Shown: positions 16,632 to 54,146 of the stretch, one piece after another
How positions within the stretch are numbered: position 1 is the first letter of the stretch
Layout of the letters: every line of letters begins with the position of its first letter
Origin: an uncultured Bacteroidales bacterium
Lineage (GTDB): Bacteria > Bacteroidota > Bacteroidia > Bacteroidales > F082
Direction of reading: 5' to 3'
Assembly: GCA_947303395.1 (NCBI GenBank)
Contig: CAMYYD010000002.1
Coordinates: forward strand, 184,938 to 248,937
Length of the DNA: 64,000 nucleotides
Translations under genes and position numbers: made by a program
The notes under the pieces: generated by a model
Database searches by the model: none
Told to the model about the DNA's origin: nothing
What the model saw: only the letters and a program-made list of their open reading frames with translations

Positions 16632-16658
16632 AATATTCAATTTTTAATTTTCCAACAA

Positions 16659-18446: not shown

Positions 18447-18452
18447 ATCTTT

Positions 18453-18460
18453 CTCCTCCT
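18453..18460 (-). promoter_or_regulatory. Strong Shine-Dalgarno site of hydA
   Basis: AGGAGGAG on the minus strand, 6 nt before the hydA ATG. It fixes the start codon and stands out because most genes in this window lack such a site. Confidence 0.85.
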
Positions 18461-18466
18461 CTATTT

Positions 18467-39945: not shown

Positions 39946-40134
39946 GTGTTTCGCAAAATATTATTGTTGAAAACAATTTCAAAAAAAAATAAAAAAATTA
40001 CATTTCTTTAAGAAAAAAGTCGTATAATTGCATTTTGAAAATTCTGTATTGACAGGGGGGTTATTTTTTGTTGAGAATATACAATATTTTCGAAGGTTTT
40101 GAGTTAAACAGATAAGAAATAAAATTTGTATAAA

Positions 40135-41553
40135 ATGCATAAAAAGTTCAGATTCAGCGCAGTTTTGGCTATTATTTGTTGCAGTTTGTTATTACAGTCT
40201 TGCTTTAATAAATCAGAAAGATCAAGGACCACAGGCTGGAAGTATAACGAGCCTAATGAGAGTTACTTCTTCTTCCCTGAGCAGCAAGACCAACCGACAG
40301 GACCTGGTCTCGTGCCAATCGAAGGTGGAACATTTACCATGGGTGCAACTCAAGACAACGTGTATTATGAGTGGAACAACACTCCACGTCAGGTAACCGT
40401 ATCTTCATTCTACATGGATCAGACTGAAATCAGCAACCTCGATTATCTCGAATACGTTTATTGGATGAATCATATTTATTCAAAAGACGAGCCACAAGTT
40501 GTCAAAAATGCTCTTCCTGACACTTTGGTATGGCGTAACTCATTGTCATACAACGAGCCTATGATTGAAGTTTATTTCCGTCACCCAGCTTACCGCGATT
40601 ATCCGGTTGTAGGTGTGTCATGGAAACAAGCTGCTAACTATGCATTATGGCGTACCGACCGTGTCAATGAGATTTTGCTCATCGAAGCCGGTGTTATCGT
40701 ATACGACCCGGATCAGAACATGCAGAACAACTTCAGCACCGACTCATATCTCGCAGGACAATATACAGGTCAAGTTGAAAACGGCTTCATGGAATTAGAC
40801 CCATCACTGGGTGAATCAACACGTCACGTTATTCAAGAAGACGGTATCATCCTTCCAAAATATCGTCTCCCCACGGAAGCTGAATGGGAATATGCCGCTT
40901 TGGGTCTCGTAGGTACCACTATCGATGGCCGTACTGTTGAGCGCAGAACATATCCTTGGAACTCAGCAGGTTTGAGAATTCCAGAAGGCGAAGGCAAAGG
41001 TAACTTCATCGCAAACTTCAAAAGAGGAAAAGGTGACTACATGGGTAACGCTGGTGGCTTGAATGACGGCTACACTTTCCCATCACCAGTAAATTCATAT
41101 TATCCTAACGACTTCGGTCTCTACAACATGGCAGGTAATGTCTCAGAATGGGTATTCGACGTCTATCGTCCGCTGTCATTCCACGATTTCTTCGACATCA
41201 ACCCTGTTCGTGGTAATATGTATGATCCTAAATACGACACTCTTTACTCAAAATCAGGTCGCATTCACCCAAATAGCTTCAGCGTCAACTACAACGACGG
41301 TGATAAGATGTCGAACAACATCAAAAACGCAAGTGACGACAAACCTGAGAGCGAGTATACAAATGAGATGTATAAATACGGTGAAACCACTTTGATTAAC
41401 GATAATGCACGCGTTTACAAAGGTGGTTCATGGGCAGATGGTCCATACTACCTCAGCCCTTCAGTCCGTCGTTTCATGAACGAAAATCAAGCATCGGCAA
41501 CAATCGGTTTCAGATGCGCAATGAACATGATCGGACGACCAGCTAATTATTAA
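40135..41553 (+). CDS. gldJ: T9SS/gliding lipoprotein GldJ (SUMF1-like)
   Basis: A 472-aa lipoprotein with a lipobox LLLQSC (Cys22 or so) and a formylglycine-enzyme-like (SUMF1) domain. The segments TGWKYNEP, GPGLVPIEGGTFTMGATQDNVYYEWNNTPRQVTVSSFYMDQTEISNLDYLEYVYWM and NMAGNVSEWVFDVYRP distinguish GldJ from the related GldK/PorK. GldJ is needed for stable T9SS and gliding machinery in Flavobacterium. It is divergent from porU-porV and followed by murF, as recalled for F. johnsoniae. GldK, L, M and N are not in this window. The ATG at 40135 is preferred over a TTG three codons upstream. Confidence 0.88.
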   Translation: MHKKFRFSAVLAIICCSLLLQSCFNKSERSRTTGWKYNEPNESYFFFPEQQDQPTGPGLVPIEGGTFTMGATQDNVYYEWNNTPRQVTVSSFYMDQTEISNLDYLEYVYWMNHIYSKDEPQVVKNALPDTLVWRNSLSYNEPMIEVYFRHPAYRDYPVVGVSWKQAANYALWRTDRVNEILLIEAGVIVYDPDQNMQNNFSTDSYLAGQYTGQVENGFMELDPSLGESTRHVIQEDGIILPKYRLPTEAEWEYAALGLVGTTIDGRTVERRTYPWNSAGLRIPEGEGKGNFIANFKRGKGDYMGNAGGLNDGYTFPSPVNSYYPNDFGLYNMAGNVSEWVFDVYRPLSFHDFFDINPVRGNMYDPKYDTLYSKSGRIHPNSFSVNYNDGDKMSNNIKNASDDKPESEYTNEMYKYGETTLINDNARVYKGGSWADGPYYLSPSVRRFMNENQASATIGFRCAMNMIGRPANY

Positions 41554-41573
41554 TCAGACAACAAAAACTAAAG

Positions 41574-41600
41574 AGCCGTCTATTAAGGCGGCTTTTTTTA
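41574..41600 (+). terminator. Terminator after gldJ
   Basis: AGCCG (41574-41578) pairs with CGGCT (41589-41593) and is followed by seven T. The murF ATG follows at once, so read-through is the likely source of murF expression. Confidence 0.75.
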
Positions 41601-41605
41601 TAAGT

Positions 41606-42883
41606 ATGATTGAAAAAATATACGAGCTTTACAAAAAAGCCTACACAATCACCACCGACAGCCGCAACATCAGCAAAGACTGCATCTTCGTGGCATTGAA
41701 AGGAGAACATTTTGACGGCAATGACTTCGCTTTAAAAGTAGCTGAAGAAGGAATAGCCGCCGGCGTGATTGCCGACAGAGCAGATCTGCCAAAACACGAG
41801 AGATTATTTATCGTAAAGGACAGCTTGAAATGCCTCCAGGTATTGGCAAAACACCACAGAGAGCAAATCGGATTACCAATAATAGGGATTACAGGCACTA
41901 ACGGCAAGACGACAACAAAAGAACTCATTTCGGCCGTTTTATCAAAGAAATACAATATCATTTTTACTCAAGGTAACTTCAACAACCAACTTGGCGCTCC
42001 TCTCACTTTACTGAGAATCAAACCGGAAACCGAACTCACAGTGGTTGAGATGGGAGCCAGCCATCCAGGCGACATCAAAGAACTCACCGACATTGGCGAA
42101 CCTAATTTTGGCATCATCACCAATATCGGACGAGCGCATCTTGAAGGCTTCGGCGGATTTGAAGGCGTCATCAAGACAAAAAACGAGATGTATCAATATA
42201 TCGCCGAACACAAAGGCATGCTCTTCGTTAACAAAGACAATGAGCTGCTGATGGACCTCGCGCATAATATTAATAAGGTGACATACGGCAGCACAGATAG
42301 CGCTGATGTAAATGGTAAAATACTCTCTGCGAATCCATATCTCTCAGTTGAATGGAATGGCAATAAAATTGATACTCAATTAGTTGGCGACTACAACTTT
42401 GAGAACGTAATGGCTGCGATATGCGTAGGCACATATTTCAAAGTTGCTGCAAACGATATTGTTGAAGCATTGTCGAGCTACTGCCCTACCAACAATCGTT
42501 CACAAGTGATCGAAACCGGAAAAAACCGTGTAGTGATGGACGCATACAACGCCAATCCTACCAGCATGAGCCATGCAATCAAGAATTTCCGCAACATCTG
42601 CAATAACGCTAACATATTGATTTTAGGCGACATGCGCGAGCTCGGCAAAGAATCCGAGCAGGAGCATAAGATGATTGTTGAACTGATTAATGAACTTAGG
42701 TTTAATAACGTATATTTAGTTGGTCCCGAGTTCTCTAAATGCTCCGAGAACTCAGAGTTTAAAACTTTTAAGAACGTCGAAGAGCTCGCGCAACATCTTA
42801 ACTACCATCCTGTTTCAGGCTTCGACATCCTTGTGAAAGGCTCCAACAGCATACATCTCAACAAAATCATAGATTCGCTCTAA
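41606..42883 (+). CDS. murF: UDP-MurNAc-tripeptide D-Ala-D-Ala ligase
   Basis: A 425-aa cytoplasmic ATP-dependent ligase that completes the peptidoglycan pentapeptide precursor. The Mur ATP-binding loop GTNGKTTT is at residues 97-104, the lysine/glutamate region VVEMGASHPGDI follows, and DAYNANPTSM with LGDMRELG is typical of MurF. Length is slightly shorter than the E. coli enzyme. Its stop codon directly precedes the anmK ATG, so the two form an operon for cell-wall synthesis and recycling. Confidence 0.95.
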   Translation: MIEKIYELYKKAYTITTDSRNISKDCIFVALKGEHFDGNDFALKVAEEGIAAGVIADRADLPKHERLFIVKDSLKCLQVLAKHHREQIGLPIIGITGTNGKTTTKELISAVLSKKYNIIFTQGNFNNQLGAPLTLLRIKPETELTVVEMGASHPGDIKELTDIGEPNFGIITNIGRAHLEGFGGFEGVIKTKNEMYQYIAEHKGMLFVNKDNELLMDLAHNINKVTYGSTDSADVNGKILSANPYLSVEWNGNKIDTQLVGDYNFENVMAAICVGTYFKVAANDIVEALSSYCPTNNRSQVIETGKNRVVMDAYNANPTSMSHAIKNFRNICNNANILILGDMRELGKESEQEHKMIVELINELRFNNVYLVGPEFSKCSENSEFKTFKNVEELAQHLNYHPVSGFDILVKGSNSIHLNKIIDSL

Positions 42884-43969
42884 ATGATTGAAAAACATAA
42901 TATTATCGGACTCATGTCGGGCTCATCACTCGACGGCATCGACATTGTCGATGCCGATTTCTGGTTCGATGGTAAATGGCATTTCGAAATAGTTGCAAAA
43001 GACAATTTCGATTACGATGATGAATGGCGAAACGCATTATCCAATGCGTTTAATGTAGGGGCGAATAATCATTCGCCCCTACAACAATTGGATTATCATT
43101 ATGGCCAATTTTTGGGGCAAACAACAAAACGTTTTATCGACAAATTTCACCTGCAACCTGAAATCGTCGCCTCCCACGGTCACACAATTTTTCACCGTCC
43201 GCAGGAACATTACACCTTGCAAATCGGTGACGGTCAGGCACTTGCAAATGAATGCGGCATCACTGTCATCAACGATTTCCGTACAGAAGATGTGCTGAAA
43301 GGCGGTCAAGGGGCGCCATTAGTACCAATCGGCGATAAATTGTTGTTTTCGGATTATCCGATATGTTTGAATATCGGCGGCATCGCTAACGTTTCATACG
43401 ACGTTGACGGTCAGCGTATTGCGTATGACATTTGCATCGCAAATCAGGCATTGAATTTTTTATCAAATAAAAAATCAATGCCATATGATAAAGACGGTTT
43501 AATCGCACGGTCAGGCGTCATTGACAATCAATTATTAAACACATTGAATTCACATCCTTTCTATTCACAAAATCATCCAAAATCATTGGGTCGTGAATTC
43601 TTTGAGGATAATATCAAACTGCTAATAGAAAACCGTGACGATATTGCTGATATGATGGCGACGTTTGTGGAACATATCGCGATACAAATTGCTAAATCAA
43701 TTGATGATGTAAAGACGTGCCATGGCGCGTCTCTACAGATATTAATCACCGGTGGCGGCGCGAAAAACAAATTCCTTGTTGAACGTATTCAGGCACACAC
43801 AAAACATCAGGTCGTTGTGCCTTCCGATGATATCATCGATTACAAAGAGGCACTGGTGTTCGCTTTCCTCGGATTATTGCGCAGCCGCAACGAAATCAAC
43901 GTGTTGAAATCCGTCACAGGCGCGGAATCGGATTCTTCTTCAGGCAGGATTTTCCATCCAAACAGATAA
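42884..43969 (+). CDS. anmK: Anhydro-N-acetylmuramic acid kinase, with two palindromic insertions
   Basis: A 361-aa cytoplasmic kinase that phosphorylates anhydroMurNAc during cell-wall recycling. Hallmarks: GLMSGSSLDGIDIV near the start, ASHGHTIFHRP, INDFRTEDVLKGGQGAPLVP, NIGGIANVSY and LITGGGAKNKFLVERI. Two palindromes interrupt the frame without breaking it: VGANNHSPLQ at residues 58-67 and VKTCHGASLQ at 276-285. Both fall in loops just before conserved segments (QLDYHYGQFLG and ILITGGGAKN), so the enzyme is probably still active. The predicted protein is otherwise of normal length and ends SGRIFHPNR. Confidence 0.94.
   Translation: MIEKHNIIGLMSGSSLDGIDIVDADFWFDGKWHFEIVAKDNFDYDDEWRNALSNAFNVGANNHSPLQQLDYHYGQFLGQTTKRFIDKFHLQPEIVASHGHTIFHRPQEHYTLQIGDGQALANECGITVINDFRTEDVLKGGQGAPLVPIGDKLLFSDYPICLNIGGIANVSYDVDGQRIAYDICIANQALNFLSNKKSMPYDKDGLIARSGVIDNQLLNTLNSHPFYSQNHPKSLGREFFEDNIKLLIENRDDIADMMATFVEHIAIQIAKSIDDVKTCHGASLQILITGGGAKNKFLVERIQAHTKHQVVVPSDDIIDYKEALVFAFLGLLRSRNEINVLKSVTGAESDSSSGRIFHPNR
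43055..43082. repeat. 28-bp palindromic element (GGGGCGAAT type) inside anmK
   Basis: GTAGGGGCGAAT (43055-43066) pairs with ATTCGCCCCTAC (43071-43082) around AATC. It is read in frame from codon GTA as VGANNHSPL followed by Q. It shares the GTA...CTAC ends and length with the GAGACG elements but has a different core. Confidence 0.9.
43709..43736. repeat. 28-bp palindromic element (GAGACG type) inside anmK
   Basis: Identical over 28 bp to the minus strand of the element in the S8 protease gene (10293-10320). Read in frame from codon GTA as VKTCHGASL followed by Q. Confidence 0.92.
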
Positions 43970-43976
43970 AAAAAAG

Positions 43977-44000
43977 AGAGACGCAAAATTTTGCGTCTCT
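43977..44000. repeat. Palindrome between anmK and fabG
   Basis: Perfect 12+12 bp palindrome AGAGACGCAAAA / TTTTGCGTCTCT, 8 bp after the anmK stop and 19 bp from the fabG stop. With A-runs on one side it can serve as a terminator, mainly for the minus-strand fab operon. Confidence 0.8.
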
Positions 44001-44018
44001 ACTCGTTTTCAACAATTA

Positions 44019-44756
44019 TTAACATTGCATTCCGCCGCAGCAATTGATCACCTGTCCGGTGACATAGCTTGAGAGGTCTGATGCGAGGAACAACGCTACG
44101 TTGGCGACGTCTTCCGGTGTACCACCTCTTCTCAACGGAATCTTGGTTGCCCAATCTTTTCTAACTTCTTCAGGAAGTGCGCGTGTCATGTCGCTCTCGA
44201 TGAAACCTGGAGCGATACAGTTGGTGCGGATGCCACGGCTACCCATCTCCTTGGCGATTGACTTGGCGAGACCAATCAAACCAGCCTTTGATGCTGAGTA
44301 GTTTGCCTGACCTGCATTGCCGCTAACACCAACGACGCTTGCCATGTTGATGATGCTTCCACCCTTCTGACGTGCCATAATTGGCAACACAGCATGGATG
44401 TAGTTGAATGCTGATTTCAGGTTCACTGTGAGCACTGCATCCCACTGTGCCTCTGTCATGCGAAGCATCAAGCCATCCTTGGTAATACCTGCGTTGTTCA
44501 CGAGGATGTCGATTCTGCCGAAGTCTTCAGCAATCTTAGCGACGGTCTTTTCAACGTCAGCAAAATCTGCTGCGTTTGAAACATAACCCTTCACTGTTGT
44601 GCCGAGTTCGCTAAGTTCAGCGACTGTTGCATTAATATTATCTTCGTTGATATCAGTAATCGCGATGTTGCAGCCTTCCATGGCATAACGTTTTGCGATT
44701 GCCTTGCCGATACCGCGAGCGGCACCGGTAACTATTGCTACTCTATTCTTTAACAT
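44019..44756 (-). CDS. fabG: 3-oxoacyl-ACP reductase
   Basis: A 245-aa short-chain dehydrogenase that reduces 3-oxoacyl-ACP with NAD(P)H. The cofactor loop TGAARGIGKAIA is near residue 10, NNAGITKDG follows, and the catalytic Ser-Tyr-Lys set is SVVGVSGNAGQANYSASKAG. The C-terminus VTGQVINCCGGMQC holds three Cys where most FabG have a hydrophobic/Asp-Gly-Gly sequence. The ATG at 44756 is inside the end of the acyl-CoA dehydrogenase gene (14-bp overlap), so it is the last gene of the operon and coupled to the one before it. Confidence 0.93.
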   Translation of the reverse strand: MLKNRVAIVTGAARGIGKAIAKRYAMEGCNIAITDINEDNINATVAELSELGTTVKGYVSNAADFADVEKTVAKIAEDFGRIDILVNNAGITKDGLMLRMTEAQWDAVLTVNLKSAFNYIHAVLPIMARQKGGSIINMASVVGVSGNAGQANYSASKAGLIGLAKSIAKEMGSRGIRTNCIAPGFIESDMTRALPEEVRKDWATKIPLRRGGTPEDVANVALFLASDLSSYVTGQVINCCGGMQC

Positions 44757-46323
44757 ATTCGTAAGTTTTTGCAATTTCTCCTTGACCTAATTTAATGATA
44801 TTTTCGCATGATTTACGGAAATCAGCGCAGCGTGTAGTGTCCTGAAGCATGAGGTATCCCATGATGATGAAACCTACAGCTTCTACTAAACGTCTGTGGT
44901 GGGTCTCTTTATTGCCCGAAAGGTCAAAAATTTCTTTATATTTTTCTGTCATAGCACGAAGCTTGTCGCGTAATGGCAACAATTCCTCTGCAAACTCGAA
45001 GTTATCCAAATCAGCGATATACTTGAGATAAGCGCCATTTCCTAAGAAACGTGCTGCTGCCACAACCTGAAGCTGTGATGTGCCTTCGTAGATGGTCAAA
45101 ATACGTGCGTCACGATAGAGGCGTTCGCATTTGTATTCCTTCATGAAGCCTGAACCACCGTGAATCTGGATGTCGTCATAAGCGATCTGGTTAGCCCATT
45201 CGCTGGCAAACATCTTCAACACTGGTGTCAACATATCAGCAATCTTCTTGTTTGTCTCAACGTAACGTGCTGTCTCATAAAGCAATGAGCGAGCTGCGTC
45301 AGTCTTGGCACGCATCAAATCGAGAATGTCCTGAACAGCGACAAACTCTCTGATTTTCTTGCCAAACTGCTCACGCTGGTCAGCGTATTCCTCAGCATCA
45401 CGAACTGCTGCCTCAGCGAGTCCGACTGACTGAGCGCCAACGCCTAAACGTGCACCGTTCATCAACGACATGACGTATTTGATAAGTCCCATCTTGCGGT
45501 CGCCAACGAGTTTAGCAGGTGCGTTATTAAACACCAACTCTGCTGTCGGTGAACCGTGGATACCCATTTTGTTCTCAATTCTTCTCACTGTCACAGCTTT
45601 TTCTTTTCTGTCATAGACGAAAAGTGAAAGACCACGACCGTCGGTGCTGCCTTCTTCTGAACGTGCGAGCACTAACTTGATGTCAGCGTCACCATTGGTA
45701 ATGAAACGCTTCACACCATTGAGTCTCCAGCAGTTAGCCTTCTCGTCGAAAGTGGCTTTCAGCTGCACCGACTGAAGGTCAGAACCTGCGTCAGGCTCGG
45801 TGAGGTCCATTGAGCATGTATCGCCTTTGTAGATACGTGGCAAATACTCGTCTTTGATAGCGTCGTCAGCGAATTTGAGGATTGTCTCAGCGCAGTCCTG
45901 CAAGCCCCAGATGTTAGCGAAGCCAGCGTCAGCGCGAGAAACCATCTCAGCTGCCATCACGTAAGGTACATAAGAGAAGTTAAGTCCGTTGTATTTGCGT
46001 GGCAATGCCATTCCGTAAAGACCAGCGTCGCGCATAGCCTCATGGTTCTGCTGTGTGCCTTTTGCGTAAACTATAGCGTTGTCAACGATTTTCGGACCTT
46101 CAATATCAACTGCCTCTGCATTCGGGTCAAGAACGTCACCGCAAAGCTCACCGACGATGTCCAACACCTTGTCGTAGTTGTCGATAGCGTCTTCCACATT
46201 CTTAGGAGCAAGTTCGTCGTTCTCAGCATCCACGAAACCGTTTTCCTTCATGCGAACGATCTCCTCCATCTTAGGATGGTTCAGATAGAAAGCGAGGCTT
46301 TTATTATCTTGATAAAAGTTCAT
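44743..46323 (-). CDS. Acyl-CoA dehydrogenase family protein (526 aa, extended)
   Basis: A flavoenzyme that interconverts acyl and 2-enoyl thioesters using ETF. The ACAD core has DLTEPDAGSDLQSVQLKA, FITNGDADIKLVLAR, MGIHGSPTAELVFNNA, QREQFGKKIREFVAVQDILDLMRAKTDAARSL and the catalytic Glu in LTIYEGTSQLQVVAAAR. It has an N-terminal extension of about 60 residues and a C-terminal helical domain, making it about 140 residues longer than short-chain enzymes. It lies inside a fatty-acid synthesis operon, directly after etfA (1-bp overlap) and before fabG. In that setting it may reduce enoyl-ACP rather than oxidise acyl-CoA (inference). Confidence 0.88.
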   Translation of the reverse strand: MNFYQDNKSLAFYLNHPKMEEIVRMKENGFVDAENDELAPKNVEDAIDNYDKVLDIVGELCGDVLDPNAEAVDIEGPKIVDNAIVYAKGTQQNHEAMRDAGLYGMALPRKYNGLNFSYVPYVMAAEMVSRADAGFANIWGLQDCAETILKFADDAIKDEYLPRIYKGDTCSMDLTEPDAGSDLQSVQLKATFDEKANCWRLNGVKRFITNGDADIKLVLARSEEGSTDGRGLSLFVYDRKEKAVTVRRIENKMGIHGSPTAELVFNNAPAKLVGDRKMGLIKYVMSLMNGARLGVGAQSVGLAEAAVRDAEEYADQREQFGKKIREFVAVQDILDLMRAKTDAARSLLYETARYVETNKKIADMLTPVLKMFASEWANQIAYDDIQIHGGSGFMKEYKCERLYRDARILTIYEGTSQLQVVAAARFLGNGAYLKYIADLDNFEFAEELLPLRDKLRAMTEKYKEIFDLSGNKETHHRRLVEAVGFIIMGYLMLQDTTRCADFRKSCENIIKLGQGEIAKTYEYVKE

Positions 46324-47318
46324 TATTTCTTACTATTTGATTTACAATATTTTATCATCTTCGACACAACATCTGCGGCATCACCTGTGATGACGTAGTC
46401 TGCAATAGAGTTGATCGGGGCGTGAGGGTCGGTGTTGATTGAGATAATCAACGCTGACTGTTCCATACCTGAGCGATGCTGGACAGCGCCAGAGATACCG
46501 CAAGCGATGTAAACTTTCGGACGTACTGTGACGCCTGTCTGACCAACCTGACGTTCCGGCTCAGCGAAACCTGCGTCGACAGCGGCACGTGTAGCACCGA
46601 CTTCACCTCCAAGGAGGTCAGCAAGTTCGTGCAAAAGTTTGAAATTCTCCTTTGAGCCCATGCCATAACCGCCAGAAACAATGATAGGAGCGCCTTTGAT
46701 GTCGATTTTCTTCTCTTCAAGCTTACGCTCGATTATTTTCACGACGAAATCAGCGTCATTCAAGAACTCAGATGCGTTGAGTTTTACGACTGATGTATTA
46801 GCCTGTTTCTCAAACACTTCCTGTTTCATGACGCCTTCACGCACTGTAGCCATCTGCGGGCGCACATCCGGGCAGATGATGGTTGCGATAATGTTACCGC
46901 CGAAAGCCGGACGAATCTGCATGAGATTGCCGTTCTCGTCGATATCGAGAGCTGTACAGTCTGCTGTGAGACCGCAGCGGAGGTATGACGCCACCCTCGG
47001 ACCGAGGTCACGACCGACTGGAGTAGCTCCGAAGAGCACTGAATACGGCTTCTCGCGTTCGATGAGCTTAGTCATTACACTGAAATGTGGCAACGTCTGA
47101 TAGAATCCCAGACGCTTGTCCTCGAGGCAGAAAACGGTGTTCACGCCATGCGTAAACAGCTCGTTCTCAAGACCTTTTAGGTTGTTGCCAATAACAGCGG
47201 CCTCAACGTTGACGTTGAGTCGGTCGGCCAGATGACGGGCTTTAGAACAGAGCTCCAAGCTCACATCGGCGATCTTGCCGTCGTCTTTAACTTCGCAATA
47301 AACAATAATGTTATTCAT
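46323..47318 (-). CDS. etfA: Electron transfer flavoprotein subunit alpha
   Basis: A 331-aa FAD-binding subunit of ETF. The C-terminal FAD domain is typical: VSGGYGMGSKENFKLLHELADLLGGEVGATRAAVDAGFAEPERQVGQTGVTV, then YIACGISGAVQHRSGMEQS and INTDPHAPINSIADYVITGD. The family usually has SGGRG where this protein has SGGYG, removing an arginine near the flavin. It overlaps acp by 1 bp on one side and the acyl-CoA dehydrogenase by 1 bp on the other. Confidence 0.94.
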   Translation of the reverse strand: MNNIIVYCEVKDDGKIADVSLELCSKARHLADRLNVNVEAAVIGNNLKGLENELFTHGVNTVFCLEDKRLGFYQTLPHFSVMTKLIEREKPYSVLFGATPVGRDLGPRVASYLRCGLTADCTALDIDENGNLMQIRPAFGGNIIATIICPDVRPQMATVREGVMKQEVFEKQANTSVVKLNASEFLNDADFVVKIIERKLEEKKIDIKGAPIIVSGGYGMGSKENFKLLHELADLLGGEVGATRAAVDAGFAEPERQVGQTGVTVRPKVYIACGISGAVQHRSGMEQSALIISINTDPHAPINSIADYVITGDAADVVSKMIKYCKSNSKK

Positions 47319-47554
47319 TATTTTGCCTTGATTTCTTCAACAACTTTGATTGCATCACCCACTGTGACGATCTTCTCTGTCATGTTATCCGGGATAGTGA
47401 TTTCGAACTCACGCTCGATGTCCATGATAAGCTCAACGATATCCAATGAATCAGCGCCTAATGTTGTGACGAAACCTGCGTCTTCTGTTACCTGTGCTGG
47501 GTCGCAATTAAGTTTGTTAACGATAATTTCAGTGATTTTTGCTTTTGTATCCAT
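47318..47554 (-). CDS. acpP: Acyl carrier protein
   Basis: A 78-aa acidic carrier protein. The phosphopantetheine attachment site is Ser36 in GADSLDIVELIMDIE. It sits between etfB and etfA, an unusual place for an ACP, and overlaps etfA by 1 bp. This ties the ETF genes to ACP-bound rather than CoA-bound chemistry. Whether it is the only ACP of the cell cannot be seen here. Confidence 0.96.
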   Translation of the reverse strand: MDTKAKITEIIVNKLNCDPAQVTEDAGFVTTLGADSLDIVELIMDIEREFEITIPDNMTEKIVTVGDAIKVVEEIKAK

Positions 47555-47607
47555 GATTTTAAGATTTTTTTAAGTTGATAATTTGTTGTTAATTAGTTTG
47601 TTAAGTT

Positions 47608-48426
47608 TTAGAAAATATGAGCTGCGGTGAGGTCTTCAATCAATCCTTTGATTCCTTCATCGTCAGCGTTGATTGCTATGCTTTCTTTCTTTGCGAGAAC
47701 AACGTTCTCAATGTTTTTCACCTTTGTCGGCGAGCCTTTCAGACCCAGTCTTTCATAGTCAGGATTGAGGTCATCGGCTGTCAGCATTGGGATTTCAGTG
47801 TTTTTCTTCTTGATTACGAGATGAGCGTGGCGTGAGCGGCAGTCCTTTGCATTGCCGTGAACTGTTACGAGAGCCGGGAGTTTTGTCTCGACGACTTCGA
47901 TACCATGCTGGAGCACTCTCTTGAGACGAATTGTGTCAGTAGATGCTGCGATGATCTCATCAGCGTAAGTGATTTGTGGCACGTCGAGCTTCTCTGCTGT
48001 CTGTGGTCCCACCTGTGCGGTGTCGCCATCGATAGCCTGACGTCCTGTAAAGACGATGTCGTAATGTCCTAACTTCTTGATTGCCATCGACAAAGCGTAT
48101 GATGTAGCCAATGTGTCAGAGCCTGCGAAACGTTTGTCGCTGACTACAAAACCATCGTCTGCGCCACGGTACAAAGCCTCGCGGATAATCTCGTTGGCAC
48201 GTGGAGGTCCCATCGTGATGACAGTAACCTTGACATCGACGTTTTCTTTCTTAATAATATCACGGCACATCAAAGCCATCTCGAGAGCCTTCATGTCATC
48301 CGGGTTAAAGATGGCTGGAAGAGCTGCGCGGTTGATGGTGCCGTCGGCATTCATGGCGTCCTTACCAACATTCTTGGTATCAGGCACCTGTTTTGCCAAC
48401 ACAACTATTTGAAATTCTTTCTTCAT
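47608..48426 (-). CDS. etfB: Electron transfer flavoprotein subunit beta (bifurcating type)
   Basis: A 272-aa ETF subunit. VVLAKQVPDTKNV starts the protein, and the segment FTGRQAIDGDTAQVGPQTAEKLDVPQ contains the DGDTAQVGP sequence that, as I recall, marks the bifurcating/anaerobic ETF class, in place of DDDCNQTGQ in mitochondrial-type ETF. Such ETFs can couple NADH oxidation to simultaneous reduction of ferredoxin and an enoyl substrate. It lies between fabZ and acp in the operon. Confidence 0.93.
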   Translation of the reverse strand: MKKEFQIVVLAKQVPDTKNVGKDAMNADGTINRAALPAIFNPDDMKALEMALMCRDIIKKENVDVKVTVITMGPPRANEIIREALYRGADDGFVVSDKRFAGSDTLATSYALSMAIKKLGHYDIVFTGRQAIDGDTAQVGPQTAEKLDVPQITYADEIIAASTDTIRLKRVLQHGIEVVETKLPALVTVHGNAKDCRSRHAHLVIKKKNTEIPMLTADDLNPDYERLGLKGSPTKVKNIENVVLAKKESIAINADDEGIKGLIEDLTAAHIF

Positions 48427-48435
48427 TATATAAAA

Positions 48436-48861
48436 TTATTTTTCTGTTCTTGGAACGAGAGCGAACGACAAGCTTCCGCTGACGCACTGTTTTCCTCTAA
48501 CGCTCAGTTTAGCGTCGCAGAAATAAATGTTTGCGCGGTGTGCTGTCAAGACGGCATCGACTTCCACTGTATCACCAGGAAGCACCTGATTCTTGAAACG
48601 CACATTGTTAATGCCTGTGTAGAATGTCAGTTTGCCCGGAAGGTCGTCCTTCATAAGAAGAGCGCAGCTCTGGGCCATAATCTCGCAGAGGATGACACCC
48701 GGCACCACTGGGTTGCCCGGGAAGTGTCCCTGGAGGAAGAACTCATCACCATTGACGTGATATTTCGAATGAGCGACATGCTGGTCGTCAATCTCAATCT
48801 CGTCAACGAGCAACATAGGCTCGCGATGAGGTAAGTAGTTTTTTAATTCTTCTCTTGTCAT
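48436..48861 (-). CDS. fabZ: 3-hydroxyacyl-ACP dehydratase, FabZ-type hot-dog protein
   Basis: A 141-aa dehydratase that forms 2-enoyl-ACP. The catalytic His and Glu lie in FFLQGHFPGNPVVPGVILCEIMAQSCALL, the family motif. LPHREPMLLVDEIEIDD begins the protein as in FabZ. It lies 9 bp before etfB. The enoyl product would be the substrate of the proposed Etf-linked reductase in the same operon. Confidence 0.92.
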   Translation of the reverse strand: MTREELKNYLPHREPMLLVDEIEIDDQHVAHSKYHVNGDEFFLQGHFPGNPVVPGVILCEIMAQSCALLMKDDLPGKLTFYTGINNVRFKNQVLPGDTVEVDAVLTAHRANIYFCDAKLSVRGKQCVSGSLSFALVPRTEK

Positions 48862-48882
48862 AGCTATATGATTTTCAATAAT

Positions 48883-50121
48883 TTACTTGATTGGTCTGAG
48901 AGCTACAGCGCCATTATGTCCACCGAAACCAAGTGACTCTGACACTGCAATTGTCAAATCAGCCTTGACAGCTTTGTTTGGAGTGTAGTTGAGGTCGCAG
49001 ACTGGGTCTGGCTCGTTGAGGTTGATTGTTGGAGGTACCATACCGTCGCGAAGTGCCAGCACTGATGCGATGATTTCCACTGCGCCTGCTGCACCGAGAA
49101 GGTGTCCCATCATTGATTTTGTAGAGCTAATCATGGCTCTGCGAGCTTCTGTCTCGCCCAATGCTTTCTTCAAAGCTGCTGTCTCTGATGAGTCATTCAG
49201 CGATGTGCCTGTACCATGTGCGTTGACGTAAAGAACATCTTTACCAGCCTGATAACCAGCCTCATCCAATGCCATCTTGATAGCGTTAGCAGCGTATGTT
49301 CCTTCCGGATGTGGTGCTGTCACGTGATGTGCGTCGCAGGTGTTGCCGTATCCGCAAACCTCTGCATATATTGTAGCACCACGTTTCTTAGCGTGTTCAT
49401 ATTCTTCCATCAGCACTACGCCTGCGCCTTCTGCAATAACAAAACCTGCACGGCGACTGTCGAATGGCAATGAAGCTGCCATCGGGTCTTCTGATTTTGA
49501 CAAAGCCTTGGCATTGGCGAAACCAGCAATCGACAATCTATTAATAGGTGCTTCTGTACCTCCAGCGATGATGCCGTCAGCATATCCGTCTTTGATGGCA
49601 CGGTAAGCCTCACCGATAGCGTTAGTACTTGTAGCGCATGCTGTTACAACAGGGATGCAAACGCCATGAGCGTTAAATCTGATAGCGACGTTGCCTGATG
49701 CCATATTTGCAATCATGGTAGGGATCATCAAAGGAGACACCCAGCGTGGCCCTTCTGCCTCGAGTTTGTGCATCTCGCGCATCATAGTGTCAAATCCACC
49801 GATACCAGAGCCGATATAAACTCCGAGACGATTCTCGTCCCAACCTTCCTCGTTGCCTTGCATAGCCTGTACTGCAGCTGCCATGGCATAAACCGAGAAC
49901 AAGTCGTTGCGGCGCACAAATGGCGTCTCAAGATTATAATCTGCAGGGTTGAAGTCTTTTACCTCGCCTGCCACCTTCGATGGAAGGTCACTTGTGTCAA
50001 ATTTAGTGATTGGTGTGATGCCGCATACACCGGCCATAATGTTCTTATTGAATGTCTCAATATTGTTGCCCACTGGTGAGACAACTCCCATTCCTGTTAT
50101 TACAACTCTTCTTTTATTCAT
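48883..50121 (-). CDS. fabF: Beta-ketoacyl-ACP synthase II
   Basis: A 412-aa condensing enzyme for chain elongation. RRVVITGMGVVSPVGNN starts the protein; the catalytic Cys is in VVTACATSTNAIGEAYRAI; the His residues are in YVNAHGTGTSLNDSSE and MMGHLLGAAGAVE; the end is ESLGFGGHNGAVALRPIK. The ATG at 50121 (MNKRRVVITG) fits the family; a start at 50145 would overlap the fabH stop and add eight residues. It is the second gene of the operon. Confidence 0.95.
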   Translation of the reverse strand: MNKRRVVITGMGVVSPVGNNIETFNKNIMAGVCGITPITKFDTSDLPSKVAGEVKDFNPADYNLETPFVRRNDLFSVYAMAAAVQAMQGNEEGWDENRLGVYIGSGIGGFDTMMREMHKLEAEGPRWVSPLMIPTMIANMASGNVAIRFNAHGVCIPVVTACATSTNAIGEAYRAIKDGYADGIIAGGTEAPINRLSIAGFANAKALSKSEDPMAASLPFDSRRAGFVIAEGAGVVLMEEYEHAKKRGATIYAEVCGYGNTCDAHHVTAPHPEGTYAANAIKMALDEAGYQAGKDVLYVNAHGTGTSLNDSSETAALKKALGETEARRAMISSTKSMMGHLLGAAGAVEIIASVLALRDGMVPPTINLNEPDPVCDLNYTPNKAVKADLTIAVSESLGFGGHNGAVALRPIK

Positions 50122-50138
50122 TTCAATTAAATTCTTTA

Positions 50139-51086
50139 TTACCATTTCATAATCATTGCACCAGATACGAGACCTGCACCAAAAGCGCTGAATGCGAGGG
50201 TGTCGCCTTCTTTGAGTTTTCCAGCGCGTTTAACTTCGTCGAGAAGAATCGGGAGGCTCGCCGACGATGTGTTACCGTATTTCTCGATGTTTGTCGGGAA
50301 CTTCTCGGTCGGCTGTTTCAGCATCTGTTCAATGTATTTTATAATTCTCAAGTTTGCCTGATGTATAAAATAGGTGTCGATGTCATCAGCGCTGACTTTT
50401 GCTTCTTCGAGCACAACCTTCAAGTCGTTGACGCATGTCGATGTGGCGAATTTGAACACATCTTGTCCGTGCATCACGAGTGGGAGGTTTGTCTTGCCTT
50501 TCATGTCATATGGGCACCACTGTAAATCGTGCATCTCATAGAGACGATCCCAACCTTCAGAGGCGTTGAGACGAGTGGCGATGATATTGTCACCTGGTGT
50601 AAGCACCACTGCTCCTGCTCCTGCTCCGAACAACACTGCGCAAGTGCGGTCATGCCAGTCGAGCATGTGAGCCGGTGCCTCAGCGCAAACCACGAGGACA
50701 TTTCTCACCTTACCTATCTTATAATATGCTTCGGCTATGTCGCAGGCATAGATAAATCCCACGCAAGCTCCGTTGAGGTCAACACATGGACAGTGTGCTC
50801 CGATCTTATCTTTCACGATGCAGCTCAAAGCAGGTGTCACATACTCATTCACTACGTTAGCGCAAATGATGAAATCAAGATCTTTCACATCCATCTTTGC
50901 ATCTTCGAGAGCTTTCAAAGATGCGTCAACAGCGAGATCTAACACATATTCAGATGAAAGCACGCGGCGTTCCTTGATACCGGTACGGGCGGTGATCCAT
51001 TCATCTGATGTGTCCAAAATCTCACTCAGCATCTGGTTTGTAACCACTTTTGATGGAAGAGAACTTCCTGTTCCTGAAATTTTCAT
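50139..51086 (-). CDS. fabH: Beta-ketoacyl-ACP synthase III
   Basis: A 315-aa initiating condensing enzyme. The catalytic triad is Cys108 (DLNGACVGFIYAC), His242 (IHQANLRIIKY) and Asn272 (GNTSSASLPI). SDEWITARTGIKERR is the usual N-terminal substrate-entry segment. It is the first gene of the eight-gene operon, with fabF following after 17 bp. Its primer (acetyl-CoA, branched or other) cannot be predicted. Confidence 0.93.
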   Translation of the reverse strand: MKISGTGSSLPSKVVTNQMLSEILDTSDEWITARTGIKERRVLSSEYVLDLAVDASLKALEDAKMDVKDLDFIICANVVNEYVTPALSCIVKDKIGAHCPCVDLNGACVGFIYACDIAEAYYKIGKVRNVLVVCAEAPAHMLDWHDRTCAVLFGAGAGAVVLTPGDNIIATRLNASEGWDRLYEMHDLQWCPYDMKGKTNLPLVMHGQDVFKFATSTCVNDLKVVLEEAKVSADDIDTYFIHQANLRIIKYIEQMLKQPTEKFPTNIEKYGNTSSASLPILLDEVKRAGKLKEGDTLAFSAFGAGLVSGAMIMKW

Positions 51087-51129
51087 TTATTAAATATTTA
51101 AGTGTTAATATATTCGTTTTCAAACGTCG

Positions 51130-51137
51130 CAAAAATA
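51130..51137 (-). promoter_or_regulatory. Promoter -7 box of the fab-etf operon
   Basis: TATTTTTG on the minus strand, 43 bp before the fabH ATG. The -33 position (about 51157-51160) reads TTCA, a poor match, as expected for a promoter that depends on an activator. The repeat array begins directly upstream. Confidence 0.6.
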
Positions 51138-51160
51138 CCCCCATTAAACCACTTGGTGAA

Positions 51161-51300
51161 TTTTTGTGACCAATTCCACACTATATGTGACGAATTCCGC
51201 TGTTTTGTGATGAATTCAGTCATTTTGTGACGAATTTTTTCAAAATTGTGACGAAACAAAATCTTTTGTGACGAAAAATAAAAATTTTGTGACGAAATTT
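51161..51300 (+). promoter_or_regulatory. Seven phased direct repeats, probable regulator-binding array
   Basis: Seven copies of TTTTGTGACGAA-like sequence. Their GTGA cores start at 51166, 51187, 51207, 51227, 51248, 51268 and 51289, so the spacing is 21, 20, 20, 21, 20 and 21 bp, close to two helical turns. The last copy runs into the -33 box of the LytTR gene; the first lies next to the -33 region of fabH. LytTR regulators are known to bind direct repeats spaced by about two helical turns, so binding by the neighbouring regulator is a natural hypothesis. Confidence 0.8.
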
Positions 51301-51328
51301 GGTCGTATTAAAAATATTTGTATCTTTG
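51298..51328 (+). promoter_or_regulatory. Promoter of the LytTR gene
   Basis: TTTG (51298-51301), 19-bp gap, TATCTTTG (51321-51328): a perfect match to the consensus, with a 19-bp leader. Confidence 0.85.
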
Positions 51329-51347
51329 CACCATAAAAATTACGCCT

Positions 51348-52250
51348 ATGCAAAGCAAAAAGCTGCCACATTATCTTATTGAGAAGAACAATCTCATCGT
51401 TCAAGTGACGATATCAGTGCTCTTTGCAATAGCATTTTTGGCTGTATATGTACCTTTATCAGACACTACAACAGCCTGGTTTTCACTTGAAGAACAAGAT
51501 AAGTTCATCTATACGGCTTTCTTCATCATATTCTCTACCATCTTCTTGATTTTCAGCAGAATATTGATGTTTTACATGTCAAAAAGACTCATCAGGTTTA
51601 CATTACCTAAATATATATTATGGACTTTAGGTGAGATAGTGCTCATTGGACTGTTCCATGCATATATCTCATTGGGAATCATGCATGTAGAAGAGCACAC
51701 AGAAGGTCTTATTGTTGGAAAAAGTATCTTGGTGACATTCATCGCACTAGGTTTCCCATTCATTGTCACCGACCTCAGCTTCGCACTTCTTGACGCTCAA
51801 CGAGTCTTGAAAATCGCAAGACGAGTGATACAATCTAATGATAACGATGCACAAAACTTACCAAAAAGCAGCCCAGCAGAGAAACTGGTGACAGAGAATC
51901 CTGACATCATCAACTTCAACGATTACACCGGAGCATTGAAATTCACAGTAAAACTTGAGAATATATACTACATCAAGGCGGAAGGCAATTACGTGAACGT
52001 TTATTATAATAATAAAGGTAATATCAGTTCGTTTGTGCTCCGCAACAAGATTCAAGTCATCGAAGACACATTTGCAGGCACACCTCTCATGCGTTGTCAT
52101 CGCACATATATTGTTAATTCAAACAATATCAAGCTGTTAAGTAAATTAGCCGACGGTTATTACATCGACTTCAACCAATCAGGATTGGAATCAATACCTG
52201 TTTCCAACACCTATCAGGAAAAAATTGTAAAAAGATTCACAGAAAACTAA
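51348..52250 (+). CDS. Membrane-anchored LytTR-family transcription regulator
   Basis: A 300-aa protein with four predicted transmembrane helices in the first 140 residues (for example VTISVLFAIAFLAVYVPL, FFIIFSTIFLIFSRILMFY, YILWTLGEIVLIGLFHAYISLGI) and a C-terminal LytTR DNA-binding domain (about 195-295: YYIKAEGNYVNVYYNNKGNISSFVLRNKIQVIEDTF, MRCHRTYIVNSNNIKLL). There is no receiver domain, so it probably senses a membrane signal directly. The ATG at 51348 is chosen over a TTG lying in the -7 box. The repeat array at its promoter suggests self-regulation and control of the divergent fab-etf operon (inference). Confidence 0.87.
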   Translation: MQSKKLPHYLIEKNNLIVQVTISVLFAIAFLAVYVPLSDTTTAWFSLEEQDKFIYTAFFIIFSTIFLIFSRILMFYMSKRLIRFTLPKYILWTLGEIVLIGLFHAYISLGIMHVEEHTEGLIVGKSILVTFIALGFPFIVTDLSFALLDAQRVLKIARRVIQSNDNDAQNLPKSSPAEKLVTENPDIINFNDYTGALKFTVKLENIYYIKAEGNYVNVYYNNKGNISSFVLRNKIQVIEDTFAGTPLMRCHRTYIVNSNNIKLLSKLADGYYIDFNQSGLESIPVSNTYQEKIVKRFTEN

Positions 52251-52274
52251 TTTTTTTCAATTTTTTTGTACTAA

Positions 52275-52312
52275 ATTTGTCAATTAATTGTTTATTTTTG
52301 TAATTGACAAAT
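52275..52312 (+). promoter_or_regulatory. 12-bp inverted repeat flanking the exbB -7 box
   Basis: ATTTGTCAATTA (52275-52286) and TAATTGACAAAT (52301-52312) are perfect reverse complements and enclose 14 bp containing TATTTTTG (52293-52300). The layout fits a repressor operator over the promoter of the exbB-exbD-tonB genes. Confidence 0.65.
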
Positions 52313-52320
52313 ATTAGTGT

Positions 52321-53007
52321 ATGAATTTAACAAGTTTTTTATTGCAAGTACCTGTAAGTGAAGCACTTACTGAACCATCAGAAATTAGAATGTCATTATG
52401 GGACATGGCCGTTCAAGGCGGCTGGATTATGTTGGTTTTAGCTATTTTCTCAGTGATAGCTTTTTACATCTTCATCGAAAGATTCATCACCATCAACAAA
52501 GCGGCGAAAAAAGACGACATGTTCATGGAGACTATCCGCAGCTACATGAAAGACGGTAAGTTAAACGATGCTAAGGTGTTATGCCAGAAAGCCTCTACCC
52601 CACTTTCACGAATGATTGAAAAAGGTATCTCACGTATCGGCAAGCCGTTGAACGACATTCAGACAGCTGTCGAAAATGTTGGTAATCTTGAAGTTAGCAG
52701 TCTTGAAAAAGGTGTGGCACTGCTCGCCATGATTTCAGGAGCAGGTCCAATGTTGGGATTCCTCGGCACAGTTATCGGTATGATCCGCGCATTCTACGAC
52801 ATGTCGATGGCTGGTAACAATATCGACATCGAGCTTCTCTCGACAGGTATTTATCAGGCCATGGTGACAACGGTGGGCGGTCTTATCGTAGGTATCATAG
52901 CCTTCATTTTCTACAACATCCTTGTTTCACAGATTGACAAGGTTGTGAACCTCCTAGAGTCGAAGAGTATTGAGTTTATGGATGTTTTGAACGAACCAGC
53001 ACAATAA
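52321..53007 (+). CDS. exbB: MotA/TolQ/ExbB proton-channel protein
   Basis: A 228-aa inner-membrane protein that uses the proton gradient to energise TonB or TolA. Three transmembrane helices are visible: GGWIMLVLAIFSVIAFYIFIE, LAMISGAGPMLGFLGTVIGMI and MVTTVGGLIVGIIAFIFYNIL, with the conserved GTVIGMIRAF segment. It starts 8 bp after an inverted repeat and heads an operon with exbD, a tonB-like gene and folC. Whether it serves TonB or Tol transport cannot be decided, but the TonB-like partner favours TonB. Confidence 0.92.
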   Translation: MNLTSFLLQVPVSEALTEPSEIRMSLWDMAVQGGWIMLVLAIFSVIAFYIFIERFITINKAAKKDDMFMETIRSYMKDGKLNDAKVLCQKASTPLSRMIEKGISRIGKPLNDIQTAVENVGNLEVSSLEKGVALLAMISGAGPMLGFLGTVIGMIRAFYDMSMAGNNIDIELLSTGIYQAMVTTVGGLIVGIIAFIFYNILVSQIDKVVNLLESKSIEFMDVLNEPAQ

Positions 53008-53010
53008 ATC

Positions 53011-53424
53011 ATGGCACTGAAACGCAGAAATCAGAGAAGAGTGGAGTTTAACTCGTCGTCGATGTCCGACCTCGTGTTTCTTCTGCTTATCTTCTTCATG
53101 CTGACCTCGACTTTGGTCGCGCCGAACGCTATTAAACTTTTGCTTCCGCAGAGCAACAGCCGCACAATGGCAAAGCAGACAGTTACCGTCTACATCAACG
53201 AGAAGATGGATTATTTCGTAGGAGAACGCCAAGTTGCTGAGGATCAGCTACAACCGGAGATTTTACTATCACTCGGCAATGCCACTGAAGGCACTGTGGT
53301 TGTGCGTTCCGACAAAAACGTGCCGGTTCAATACGTGGTCAACGTTATCGACGCGGTGAACAACATCAACAACGAGACACATCAAAACCATAAGGTTTTA
53401 CTTGCAACATCAGCGAAAAAATGA
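53011..53424 (+). CDS. exbD: ExbD/TolR biopolymer transport protein
   Basis: A 137-aa single-pass inner-membrane protein, partner of ExbB. One transmembrane helix (SDLVFLLLIFFMLTSTLV) carries the Asp that takes part in proton transfer. The periplasmic part (TVYINEKMDYFVGERQVAEDQLQPEIL) is typical. It follows exbB after 3 bp and overlaps the tonB-like gene by 4 bp (ATGA). Confidence 0.92.
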   Translation: MALKRRNQRRVEFNSSSMSDLVFLLLIFFMLTSTLVAPNAIKLLLPQSNSRTMAKQTVTVYINEKMDYFVGERQVAEDQLQPEILLSLGNATEGTVVVRSDKNVPVQYVVNVIDAVNNINNETHQNHKVLLATSAKK

Positions 53425-54146
53425 CAAAGGACAATAAAAATAGGGTCATTGCAGTCGCAGTAACAGTAGTTGTTCATGCCGCAGTTTTAGCGATATTGCT
53501 CCTACTTGCCTTGACGACACCGTTGCCGTTGCCAGGAGAAGCAGGTGTTGAGGTGAATCTCGGGATGTACAACCAAGGCATGGGAGTGCAACAGCAACCT
53601 AAGCCAAAACCTGTGGTGAACACTCCGAAACCTCAGCCACAGCAGCCAAAGGAAGAGACTGTGACGCAAGACACAGAAGAAGCACCAGCTATCGAAGAGC
53701 CGAAGCCCAAGAAAAAAGAGGAGCCGAAGGTTAATGAGAGAGCTTTGTATAAGCCTACAAAAACGCAGGAGCAGCCTTCATCGGAAGGAAACACACAAAC
53801 TCCTGGCGACCAAGGCAGTCCTAACGGAACTCCGGATGCCAACAGTTACGACGGACAAGGAGGCGCTGGCGGAGGTCCTTCATACGACCTCGGCGGCAGA
53901 GGCGCGAAACATCTTTCATCTCCAAGCAAAGAATTTGACGAAGAAGGCAAAATTGTTGTAGACATTTGGGTTGACAGAGACGGACGAGTGCAAAAGACAC
54001 AAATTGGCAAAGGAACCAATATCTCAAACGCAAGAATGCGTGAGACAGCGCTAAACGCAGCGCGCAACTCGGTTTTCAACCCCGACAGAAATGCTGCTGA
54101 ATTACAAAAAGGAACAATAACGTACAGATTTATAATAAGACAATGA
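53421..54146 (+). CDS. tonB: TonB-family energy transducer
   Basis: A 241-aa protein with one N-terminal transmembrane helix (VIAVAVTVVVHAAVLAILLLLAL), a proline/lysine-rich periplasmic spacer (about 55-120: KPKPVVNTPKPQPQQPK and EPKPKKKEEPKVNERALYKP), a glycine-rich linker and a TonB-type C-terminal domain (IVVDIWVDRDGRVQKTQIGKGTNI ... TITYRFIIRQ). It overlaps exbD and folC by 4 bp each. It could energise the BtuB-like receptor elsewhere in the window, although other TonB proteins may exist. Confidence 0.87.
   Translation: MTKDNKNRVIAVAVTVVVHAAVLAILLLLALTTPLPLPGEAGVEVNLGMYNQGMGVQQQPKPKPVVNTPKPQPQQPKEETVTQDTEEAPAIEEPKPKKKEEPKVNERALYKPTKTQEQPSSEGNTQTPGDQGSPNGTPDANSYDGQGGAGGGPSYDLGGRGAKHLSSPSKEFDEEGKIVVDIWVDRDGRVQKTQIGKGTNISNARMRETALNAARNSVFNPDRNAAELQKGTITYRFIIRQ

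Follow-up and report, generated by a model that had tools for sequence, protein, structure and literature searches.

An acyl-CoA dehydrogenase and its electron-transferring flavoprotein as the predicted enoyl-ACP reductase of a Bacteroidales fatty-acid synthesis operon

Gene content and organization of the operon

The window analyzed here, a 64,000-nucleotide stretch of an uncultured Bacteroidales genome (G000; 2.42 Mb, 40 contigs, 91.94% complete, 0.31% contamination), carries eight overlapping or near-touching genes on the minus strand at 44019-51086. In the direction of transcription (51086 to 44019) their order is fabH-fabF-fabZ-etfB-acpP-etfA-acad-fabG, so that genes of type II fatty-acid synthesis stand together with those of both subunits of an electron-transferring flavoprotein (EtfA and EtfB) and of an acyl-CoA dehydrogenase (ACAD). 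All eight are open reading frames, and from fabH to fabG the spacing between successive genes is -7, 21, 9, 53, -1, -1 and -14 bases. A first-pass annotation of this DNA had reported a packed, one-strand cluster of eight genes, and the operon is confirmed by coordinates, strand, reading frames and family matches:

50139..51086, minus strand: fabH, beta-ketoacyl-ACP synthase III, the operon's first gene (NF006829, 323.9 bits, cut-off 249; PF08541, PF08545)
48883..50145, minus strand: fabF, beta-ketoacyl-ACP synthase II (TIGR03150, 547.8 bits, cut-off 493.75)
48436..48861, minus strand: fabZ, 3-hydroxyacyl-ACP dehydratase (NF000582, 114.8 bits, cut-off 113; PF07977)
47608..48426, minus strand: etfB (PF01012; Gly134 codon at 48025-48027)
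47318..47554, minus strand: acpP, acyl carrier protein (ACP), between etfB and etfA (TIGR00517, 90.1 bits, cut-off 70.45; the serine of the DSL motif is residue 36)
46323..47318, minus strand: etfA (PF01012, PF00766; top PDB match 5ol2_A, 290 bits)
44743..46323, minus strand: acad, a PF12186-type ACAD of 526 aa, predicted enoyl-ACP reductase subunit (PF02771, PF02770, PF00441, PF12186; Glu413)
44019..44756, minus strand: fabG (TIGR01830, 331.3 bits, cut-off 297.75)

Against a second model each, FabH scores just below the cut-off (TIGR00747, 286.9 bits, cut-off 292.1) and FabZ under it (TIGR01750, 106.7 bits, cut-off 155.15). For EtfB, EtfA and the ACAD no NCBIfam model reaches its cut-off; their names rest on Pfam. 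The start of fabG is taken as the ATG at 44756 rather than the TTG at 44774. Among the genome's five PF13561 matches, fabG is the sole one above the tested FabG model, the other four having been judged by reading.

Flavoprotein type and residues of the dehydrogenase

In the PDB, EtfB is closest to 6fah, 5ol2, 4kpu, 7qh2 and 7koe (139-170 bits), followed by 2a1t at 65.5 bits, and the same five entries rank at the top for EtfA. All five are taken to be bifurcating or confurcating complexes, in agreement with titles and abstracts in the literature. The first-pass annotation had read EtfB as bifurcating, and the sequence of this subunit agrees: it contains the DGDTAQVGP segment, and its Gly134, the G of DGD, corresponds to Gly123 of Acidaminococcus fermentans EtfB when counted along the 4kpu alignment. 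One study describes Gly123 as invariant in bifurcating Etfs and replaced by a bulkier residue in canonical ones (PMC12630350); this small residue marks the site of the second FAD. The AID-G-D motif that includes this glycine was present in 98 of the 98 EtfB proteins found among 102 loci. EtfA and EtfB are thus of the bifurcating sequence type.

The catalytic glutamate of the ACAD (Glu413) is retained in all 103 aligned ACADs. Two other positions are subfamily-specific: at A261, 65 of 67 others have C, and at L409, four residues before the catalytic Glu, 66 of 67 others have T. Since the group forms a single clade, these differences were given no weight as evidence. Compared with 11 rows from other clades, the own-clade ACAD (44743-46323) is without a 23-residue stretch and a C-terminal tail. 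When the ACAD was searched against a protein database, 8000 relatives were scored, but nothing was gained on genomic context.

Conservation of gene order and a second arrangement

When contigs were scanned with the ACAD, 42 related loci were recovered, and their gene content was determined by tblastn with the window proteins. All eight genes occur in order at 29 of these loci, comprising 18 of 19 in the window's own clade (ACAD identity at least 94%) and 11 of 12 in a sister clade (65-68%); both clades belong to one genus. Seven of the eight genes were recovered at two further loci, one of which is cut by a contig end (L046) and one of which has no detected ACP (L075). Conservation of the cluster, which had been proposed as a check, is therefore borne out, and since the order is kept across related loci, a chance origin of the gene row is excluded.

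The remaining loci fall into two kinds. Seven carry EtfB-EtfA-ACAD only (L069, L070, L072, L073, L074, L077 and L078), and four (L054, L055, L056 and L068; ACAD identity 69%) have the different build ACP-FabF-FabH-EtfB-EtfA-ACAD. At L055, the locus of the four for which FabF and FabH were compared, FabF is 62% identical to a FabF that the window genome encodes elsewhere, in an acpP-fabF-rnc locus, and 44% identical to the operon FabF, while FabH has 36% identity to the window FabH. The alternative build thus reads as a second, differently assembled fatty-acid set placed beside the same EtfB-EtfA-ACAD triple, and it is the strongest single argument for ACAD-EtfAB as the predicted enoyl-ACP reductase of fatty-acid synthesis. 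The two builds could also have arisen through a single linkage followed by gene replacement.

In a tree of 91 ACAD sequences (the 103 minus 12 near-identical own-clade rows; quick method, midpoint root), the 24 fatty-acid-linked ACADs form a single clade with SH-aLRT support of 99. Support is 100 for the own clade, 84 for the sister clade and 95 for the four ACADs of the alternative build.

Search for the known enoyl-ACP reductases

Enoyl reductases were sought in 44 genome handles, which represent 43 distinct genomes (G101 and G199 are the same). Of these, 36 carry the fatty-acid-linked triple: 20 from the own clade, 12 from the sister clade and four with the alternative build. Escherichia coli FabI at an E-value of 1e-12 was the query for FabI, and TIGR03151 was used for FabK. 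FabI was not found in any of the 36 genomes, which gave matches at the level of FabG or none at all (best 8.3e-15). Sixteen of the 20 own-clade genomes gave a match to the FabI query, located at the operon FabG, and one extra match occurs in G212. Stronger matches (9.5e-22 to 6.5e-28) were obtained in five of the seven triple-only genomes, and the proteins at L079 and L083, 277 and 284 aa long, were identified as FabI by reading. Reading of the window genome's five PF13561 matches identified YxxxK in all of them and the Y-x6-K spacing of enoyl reductases in none. The ACAD itself carries ACAD fold domains and is not a FabI-type short-chain dehydrogenase/reductase (SDR).

FabK was found in none of the 20 own-clade genomes and none of the four with the alternative build, where the model gave nothing beyond local matches scoring about 26 bits at most; the window genome gave no match. 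Taken together, neither FabI nor FabK was found in 32 of the 36 genomes with either arrangement. Ten own-clade genomes with neither are 92-100% complete (G000 plus G101, G279, G305, G317, G319, G323, G325, G333 and G336, the latter nine 94-100%), and FabK is also absent from the sister genomes G298, G327 and G335 (95-100% complete); G332, in the same completeness range, has it. The first-pass annotation had named a housekeeping fabI or fabK in the same genome as the finding that would speak against its reading, and neither was found in the window genome or in the 20-genome clade.

The other type II enzymes are kept, FabI and FabK are not recognizable, and proteins related to enoyl-thioester reductases lie in the same gene row. 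For these reasons, we propose that ACAD-EtfAB likely serves type II fatty-acid synthesis as its enoyl-ACP reductase, a predicted enzyme that would be driven by NADH and would probably reduce ferredoxin as well. Its direction, its carrier (ACP or CoA), the co-transcription of the genes and the coupling to ferredoxin are what we infer.

Acyl metabolism elsewhere in the genome

The window genome contains FabD, FabH, FabF, FabG, FabZ and ACP. A FabD-family match was present in 42 of the 44 handles, the window genome included (G209 and G217 lack one). The operon FabF is the second FabF of the genome and shares 43% identity with the FabF of the acpP-fabF-rnc locus, which supplies a second ACP-FabF pair. 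Another FabG-like PF13561 match sits in a polyketide-like locus (L193, G000:C9:36000-55900), where reading also identified several ketosynthases, an ACP and an aromatic ammonia-lyase-like gene; its content resembles that of an aryl-polyene or flexirubin locus.

The second ACP-FabF pair bears on the possibility that ACAD-EtfAB works in the oxidizing direction, desaturating a chain carried on ACP to make a lipid that is unusual or unsaturated. Bulk synthesis could then be carried by the acpP-fabF-rnc pair and by a reductase that was not recognized. An ACAD acting on a carrier protein, prolyl-ACP dehydrogenase (4irn), is among the structure matches listed, and ACADs of this type run in the oxidizing direction, in secondary metabolism. 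This explanation requires an additional, unseen enoyl reductase, however, and it fits poorly with G218 and G219, where the FabF linked to the triple is the genome's only PF00109 match (G220 has two; the PF00109 search covered 19 of the 44 handles, and G217 was not among them). Furthermore, the accessible part of one report describes the butyryl-CoA dehydrogenase Bcd with a bifurcating Etf as reducing crotonyl-CoA and, to that extent, does not show the reversal (PMC6085437). We consider a desaturating role unlikely.

Three ACADs are encoded in the genome. One belongs to a separate Bcd-Hbd-Crt-CoA-transferase locus with its own EtfB; the G000 contig ends before etfA, whereas the G101 copy, on which the family models for this locus were run, has both subunits. 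The third adjoins phosphate butyryltransferase-like and butyrate kinase genes (ACAD-Ptb-Buk). Assignment of the operon to the butyrate pathway was rejected, as Crt, Hbd and the CoA-transferase are at the other locus with its own Bcd and Etf. These loci also count against a role of ACAD-EtfAB on CoA esters, in which it would supply FabH with a butyryl-CoA or branched acyl-CoA primer or serve redox balance. Most of the 60 structure matches listed are named acyl-CoA enzymes, and FabH uses acyl-CoA primers. A CoA-ester role would nevertheless leave the reductase step unfilled and would not explain why FabI and FabK are lacking, in a genome already equipped with the Bcd and ACAD-Ptb-Buk loci, and we regard it as improbable.

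Contrasts across the family and the order

A family sample of 100 genomes (26 of the own genus, 74 of other genera) was searched with a Bacteroidota FabI query. FabI was found in none of the 26 genomes of the own genus and in 68 of the 74 of other genera, where a 69th match (G245) is weak and partial. The distribution of the PF12186-type ACAD is the opposite, with 22 of 26 against one of 74 (G269, in which no FabI was found), and FabI and this ACAD occur together in none of the 100 genomes. Of the 23 genomes with the ACAD, 14 have the fatty-acid operon and nine do not (eight of the own genus, and G269). The locus of G328 is broken up; on one of its contigs (L206, G328:C29), 16 kb long, there are three ACAD matches, two with shortened frames, which may reflect duplication or assembly trouble.

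In a sample of 198 genomes from the whole order, with FabK counted at 240 bits or more, the ACAD was present in 108, FabI in 140 and FabK in 103. A correlation of the ACAD with loss of FabI and FabK was tried across the order and gave no signal: the ACAD occurs in 17 of 32 genomes with neither reductase and in 91 of 166 with at least one (P = 1.0, Fisher's exact test). Our claim is therefore limited to the fatty-acid-linked lineages. Among the 106 other ACAD loci of this sample, 60 were examined, including 15 that represent all the FabI- and FabK-less ones. The EtfB-EtfA-ACAD triple was present at 56 of the 60. Thus, what is new here is the capture of the triple by fatty-acid genes plus the absence of FabI and, mostly, FabK; it is not the triple itself, which occurs widely in the order, mostly in genomes that also have FabI and, at the 60 loci examined, outside fatty-acid operons. 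FabI lies near the triple at eight of the 60 loci (L131, L133, L142, L143, L157, L164, L165 and L166), which may point to an earlier association with enoyl reduction in other Bacteroidales.

Several observations weigh against ACAD-EtfAB as the enoyl-ACP reductase. In the sister clade, four of the 12 operon-bearing genomes retain FabK (G221, G222, G226 and G227), with 312-322 bits under a cut-off of 453; one of these proteins (L099) is probably a true FabK because it matches the enoyl-ACP reductase II 4iql, from Porphyromonas gingivalis, with 406 bits. Reductases can also be missing where there is no linkage, as neither FabI nor FabK was found in the triple-only genomes G233 and G237. Within the genus, 12 FabI-less genomes have no operon. 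In eight of these the ACAD gene lies apart from genes of fatty-acid synthesis, and in four that are 98-100% complete (G314, G326, G329 and G331) neither FabI nor the PF12186-type ACAD was found, FabK having been left out of the search in both groups. In the order sample, besides the missing correlation, 82 of the 108 genomes with the ACAD also have FabI, so that the ancestral triple has another or a parallel role. No FabI, FabK or PF12186-type ACAD was found in 15 genomes, and absence from these searches therefore does not prove that the ACAD performs the step. None of the 60 examined loci had same-strand fatty-acid genes beside the triple by tblastn with the window proteins (at L125, FabZ-FabF-FabH are nearby on the strand opposite to the triple). 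The evolutionary contrast is mostly that of one lineage, the genome has the second ACP-FabF pair, and the ACAD sequence carries no feature that would mark ACP rather than CoA as its carrier. Finally, the search for FabV (PF12241) gave no match in the 44 handles and none in any control genome either, which makes it uninformative, and FabMG and other reductases lay outside the searches. The first-pass annotation had proposed the enoyl reductase and, as a check, whether genomes with the cluster lack fabI and fabK; conservation of the cluster and the failure to find FabI in any of the 36 genomes speak for its reading, while the FabK of four sister genomes and the frequent company of the triple with FabI do not.

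Two further explanations can be judged against this background. The cell could take up fatty acids from outside, in which case the lack of FabI and FabK would reflect auxotrophy and the operon would make a special product only. The 15 order genomes in which none of the three proteins was found would be in line with this. Many of the related contigs come from animal gut sites, where lipids are available. Auxotrophy is difficult to reconcile with the retention of FabD, FabH, two FabF, FabZ, FabG and two ACPs, and would not be expected to remove a single step; we find it very unlikely. Alternatively, the step could be performed by FabV, FabMG or a new class of reductase, with the linkage of EtfAB-ACAD to the fatty-acid genes being regulatory or incidental. 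The silent FabV control and the scope of the searches leave room for such an enzyme, and the triple-FabI neighborhoods described above indicate that proximity to fatty-acid genes is possible without replacement. An incidental linkage is at odds with two differently built fatty-acid sets joined to the same triple and, in the window type, with an acpP placed between etfB and etfA and with overlapping reading frames. We give little credence to another reductase.

Proposed mechanism and significance

As an enoyl-ACP reductase, ACAD-EtfAB might operate as follows. The FAD of EtfB would take its electrons from NADH. One of them would travel via the FAD of EtfA to that of the ACAD, where trans-2-enoyl-ACP would be converted to acyl-ACP. 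The second would be handed to ferredoxin, and every elongation round would thereby produce reduced ferredoxin. The window encodes enzymes that could consume it, an [FeFe] hydrogenase of the HydABC type and an Nfn-like fusion:

16152-20281, minus strand: HydC-, HydA- and HydB-like genes, NADH-dependent group A6 [FeFe] hydrogenase (HydA, NF040763, 888 bits, cut-off 765)
6612-8885, minus strand: fused NfnAB-like protein, a second likely bifurcating enzyme of the window (NF009414, 1120 bits, cut-off 1103)

A further hydrogenase-like gene at 24891-26252 is below model cut-offs. We tentatively raise the possibility that the whole constitutes an electron-bifurcating fatty-acid synthase, in which a Bcd-like dehydrogenase with EtfAB is the sole enoyl-ACP reductase and which arose as two fatty-acid gene sets joined the same EtfB-EtfA-ACAD unit while FabI and then FabK were lost. 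FabI may have been lost in the ancestor of the genus, and FabK may have been kept for a time, as in the four sister genomes, before being lost as well.

Each elongation cycle ends with enoyl-ACP reduction, a step targeted by drugs through FabI and FabK. If ACAD-EtfAB performs it, a class of reductase with a different fold and chemistry would be added, insensitivity of these bacteria to FabI inhibitors is predicted, and membrane synthesis, which ordinarily only consumes NAD(P)H, would be tied to ferredoxin-based energy conservation. The proposal also offers a starting point for explaining what the PF12186-type ACAD does together with EtfB and EtfA; it is present in about half of the order sample (108 of 198).

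Features flanking the operon

The operon is flanked on both sides by features that may concern its expression:

43977..44000, no strand assigned: terminator-like hairpin 3' of fabG, common to the operon and the convergent gene (minus strand with a run of eight T; consensus match only)
51318..52250, plus strand: LytTR-domain protein, divergent from the head of the operon (PF04397, 53.8 bits)

The LytTR-domain gene is kept beside the operon, with 66-91% identity in the own clade and 42-45% in the sister clade, and its product may be a regulator of the operon. An Rfam scan of 40000-54000 gave no match at the gathering score.

Comparison with known systems

Our search of open-licence papers, with partial coverage, found no description of an ACAD-Etf enoyl-ACP reductase. 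The closest known systems are the bifurcating Bcd/EtfAB complexes (Clostridioides difficile 5ol2; A. fermentans 4kpu/4l1f), which likewise combine an ACAD bearing the catalytic Glu with EtfA and EtfB of the bifurcating type, Gly123 being kept. The window acad differs in lying within an ACP-dependent fatty-acid operon and not with Crt and Hbd, for which there is the separate Bcd locus for butyrate, and its product carries additional sequence at the N terminus and a PF12186 domain at the C terminus. Caffeyl-CoA reductase CarCDE (6fah) and acryloyl-CoA reductase AcrABC are also ACAD-Etf enoyl-thioester reductases and are among the top sequence relatives; their substrates are CoA esters, outside ACP-dependent lipid synthesis, and the window proteins miss the cut-offs of the acryloyl-CoA reductase models. 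The carrier-protein ACADs (prolyl-ACP dehydrogenase 4irn; RedW and PigA) belong to the same superfamily and act on a carrier-protein thioester, but the window ACAD scores only 136.8 bits against a RedW cut-off of 650 and 130.4 bits against a PigA cut-off of 500, a wide shortfall in both cases.

Among the established enoyl-ACP reductases, a 2022 review of the classes covers FabI, FabL, FabV, FabK and metagenome types, and the terms acyl-CoA dehydrogenase, flavoprotein and ferredoxin are absent from it (PMC9260719). The predicted reaction of ACAD-EtfAB, from trans-2-enoyl-ACP to acyl-ACP, would occupy the same place in the elongation cycle as that of FabI, FabL, FabV and FabMG, which are SDR enzymes, and of FabK, which uses FMN. 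In fold and cofactors ACAD-EtfAB is unrelated to all of them, and it would perform the step as a two-component flavoprotein system.

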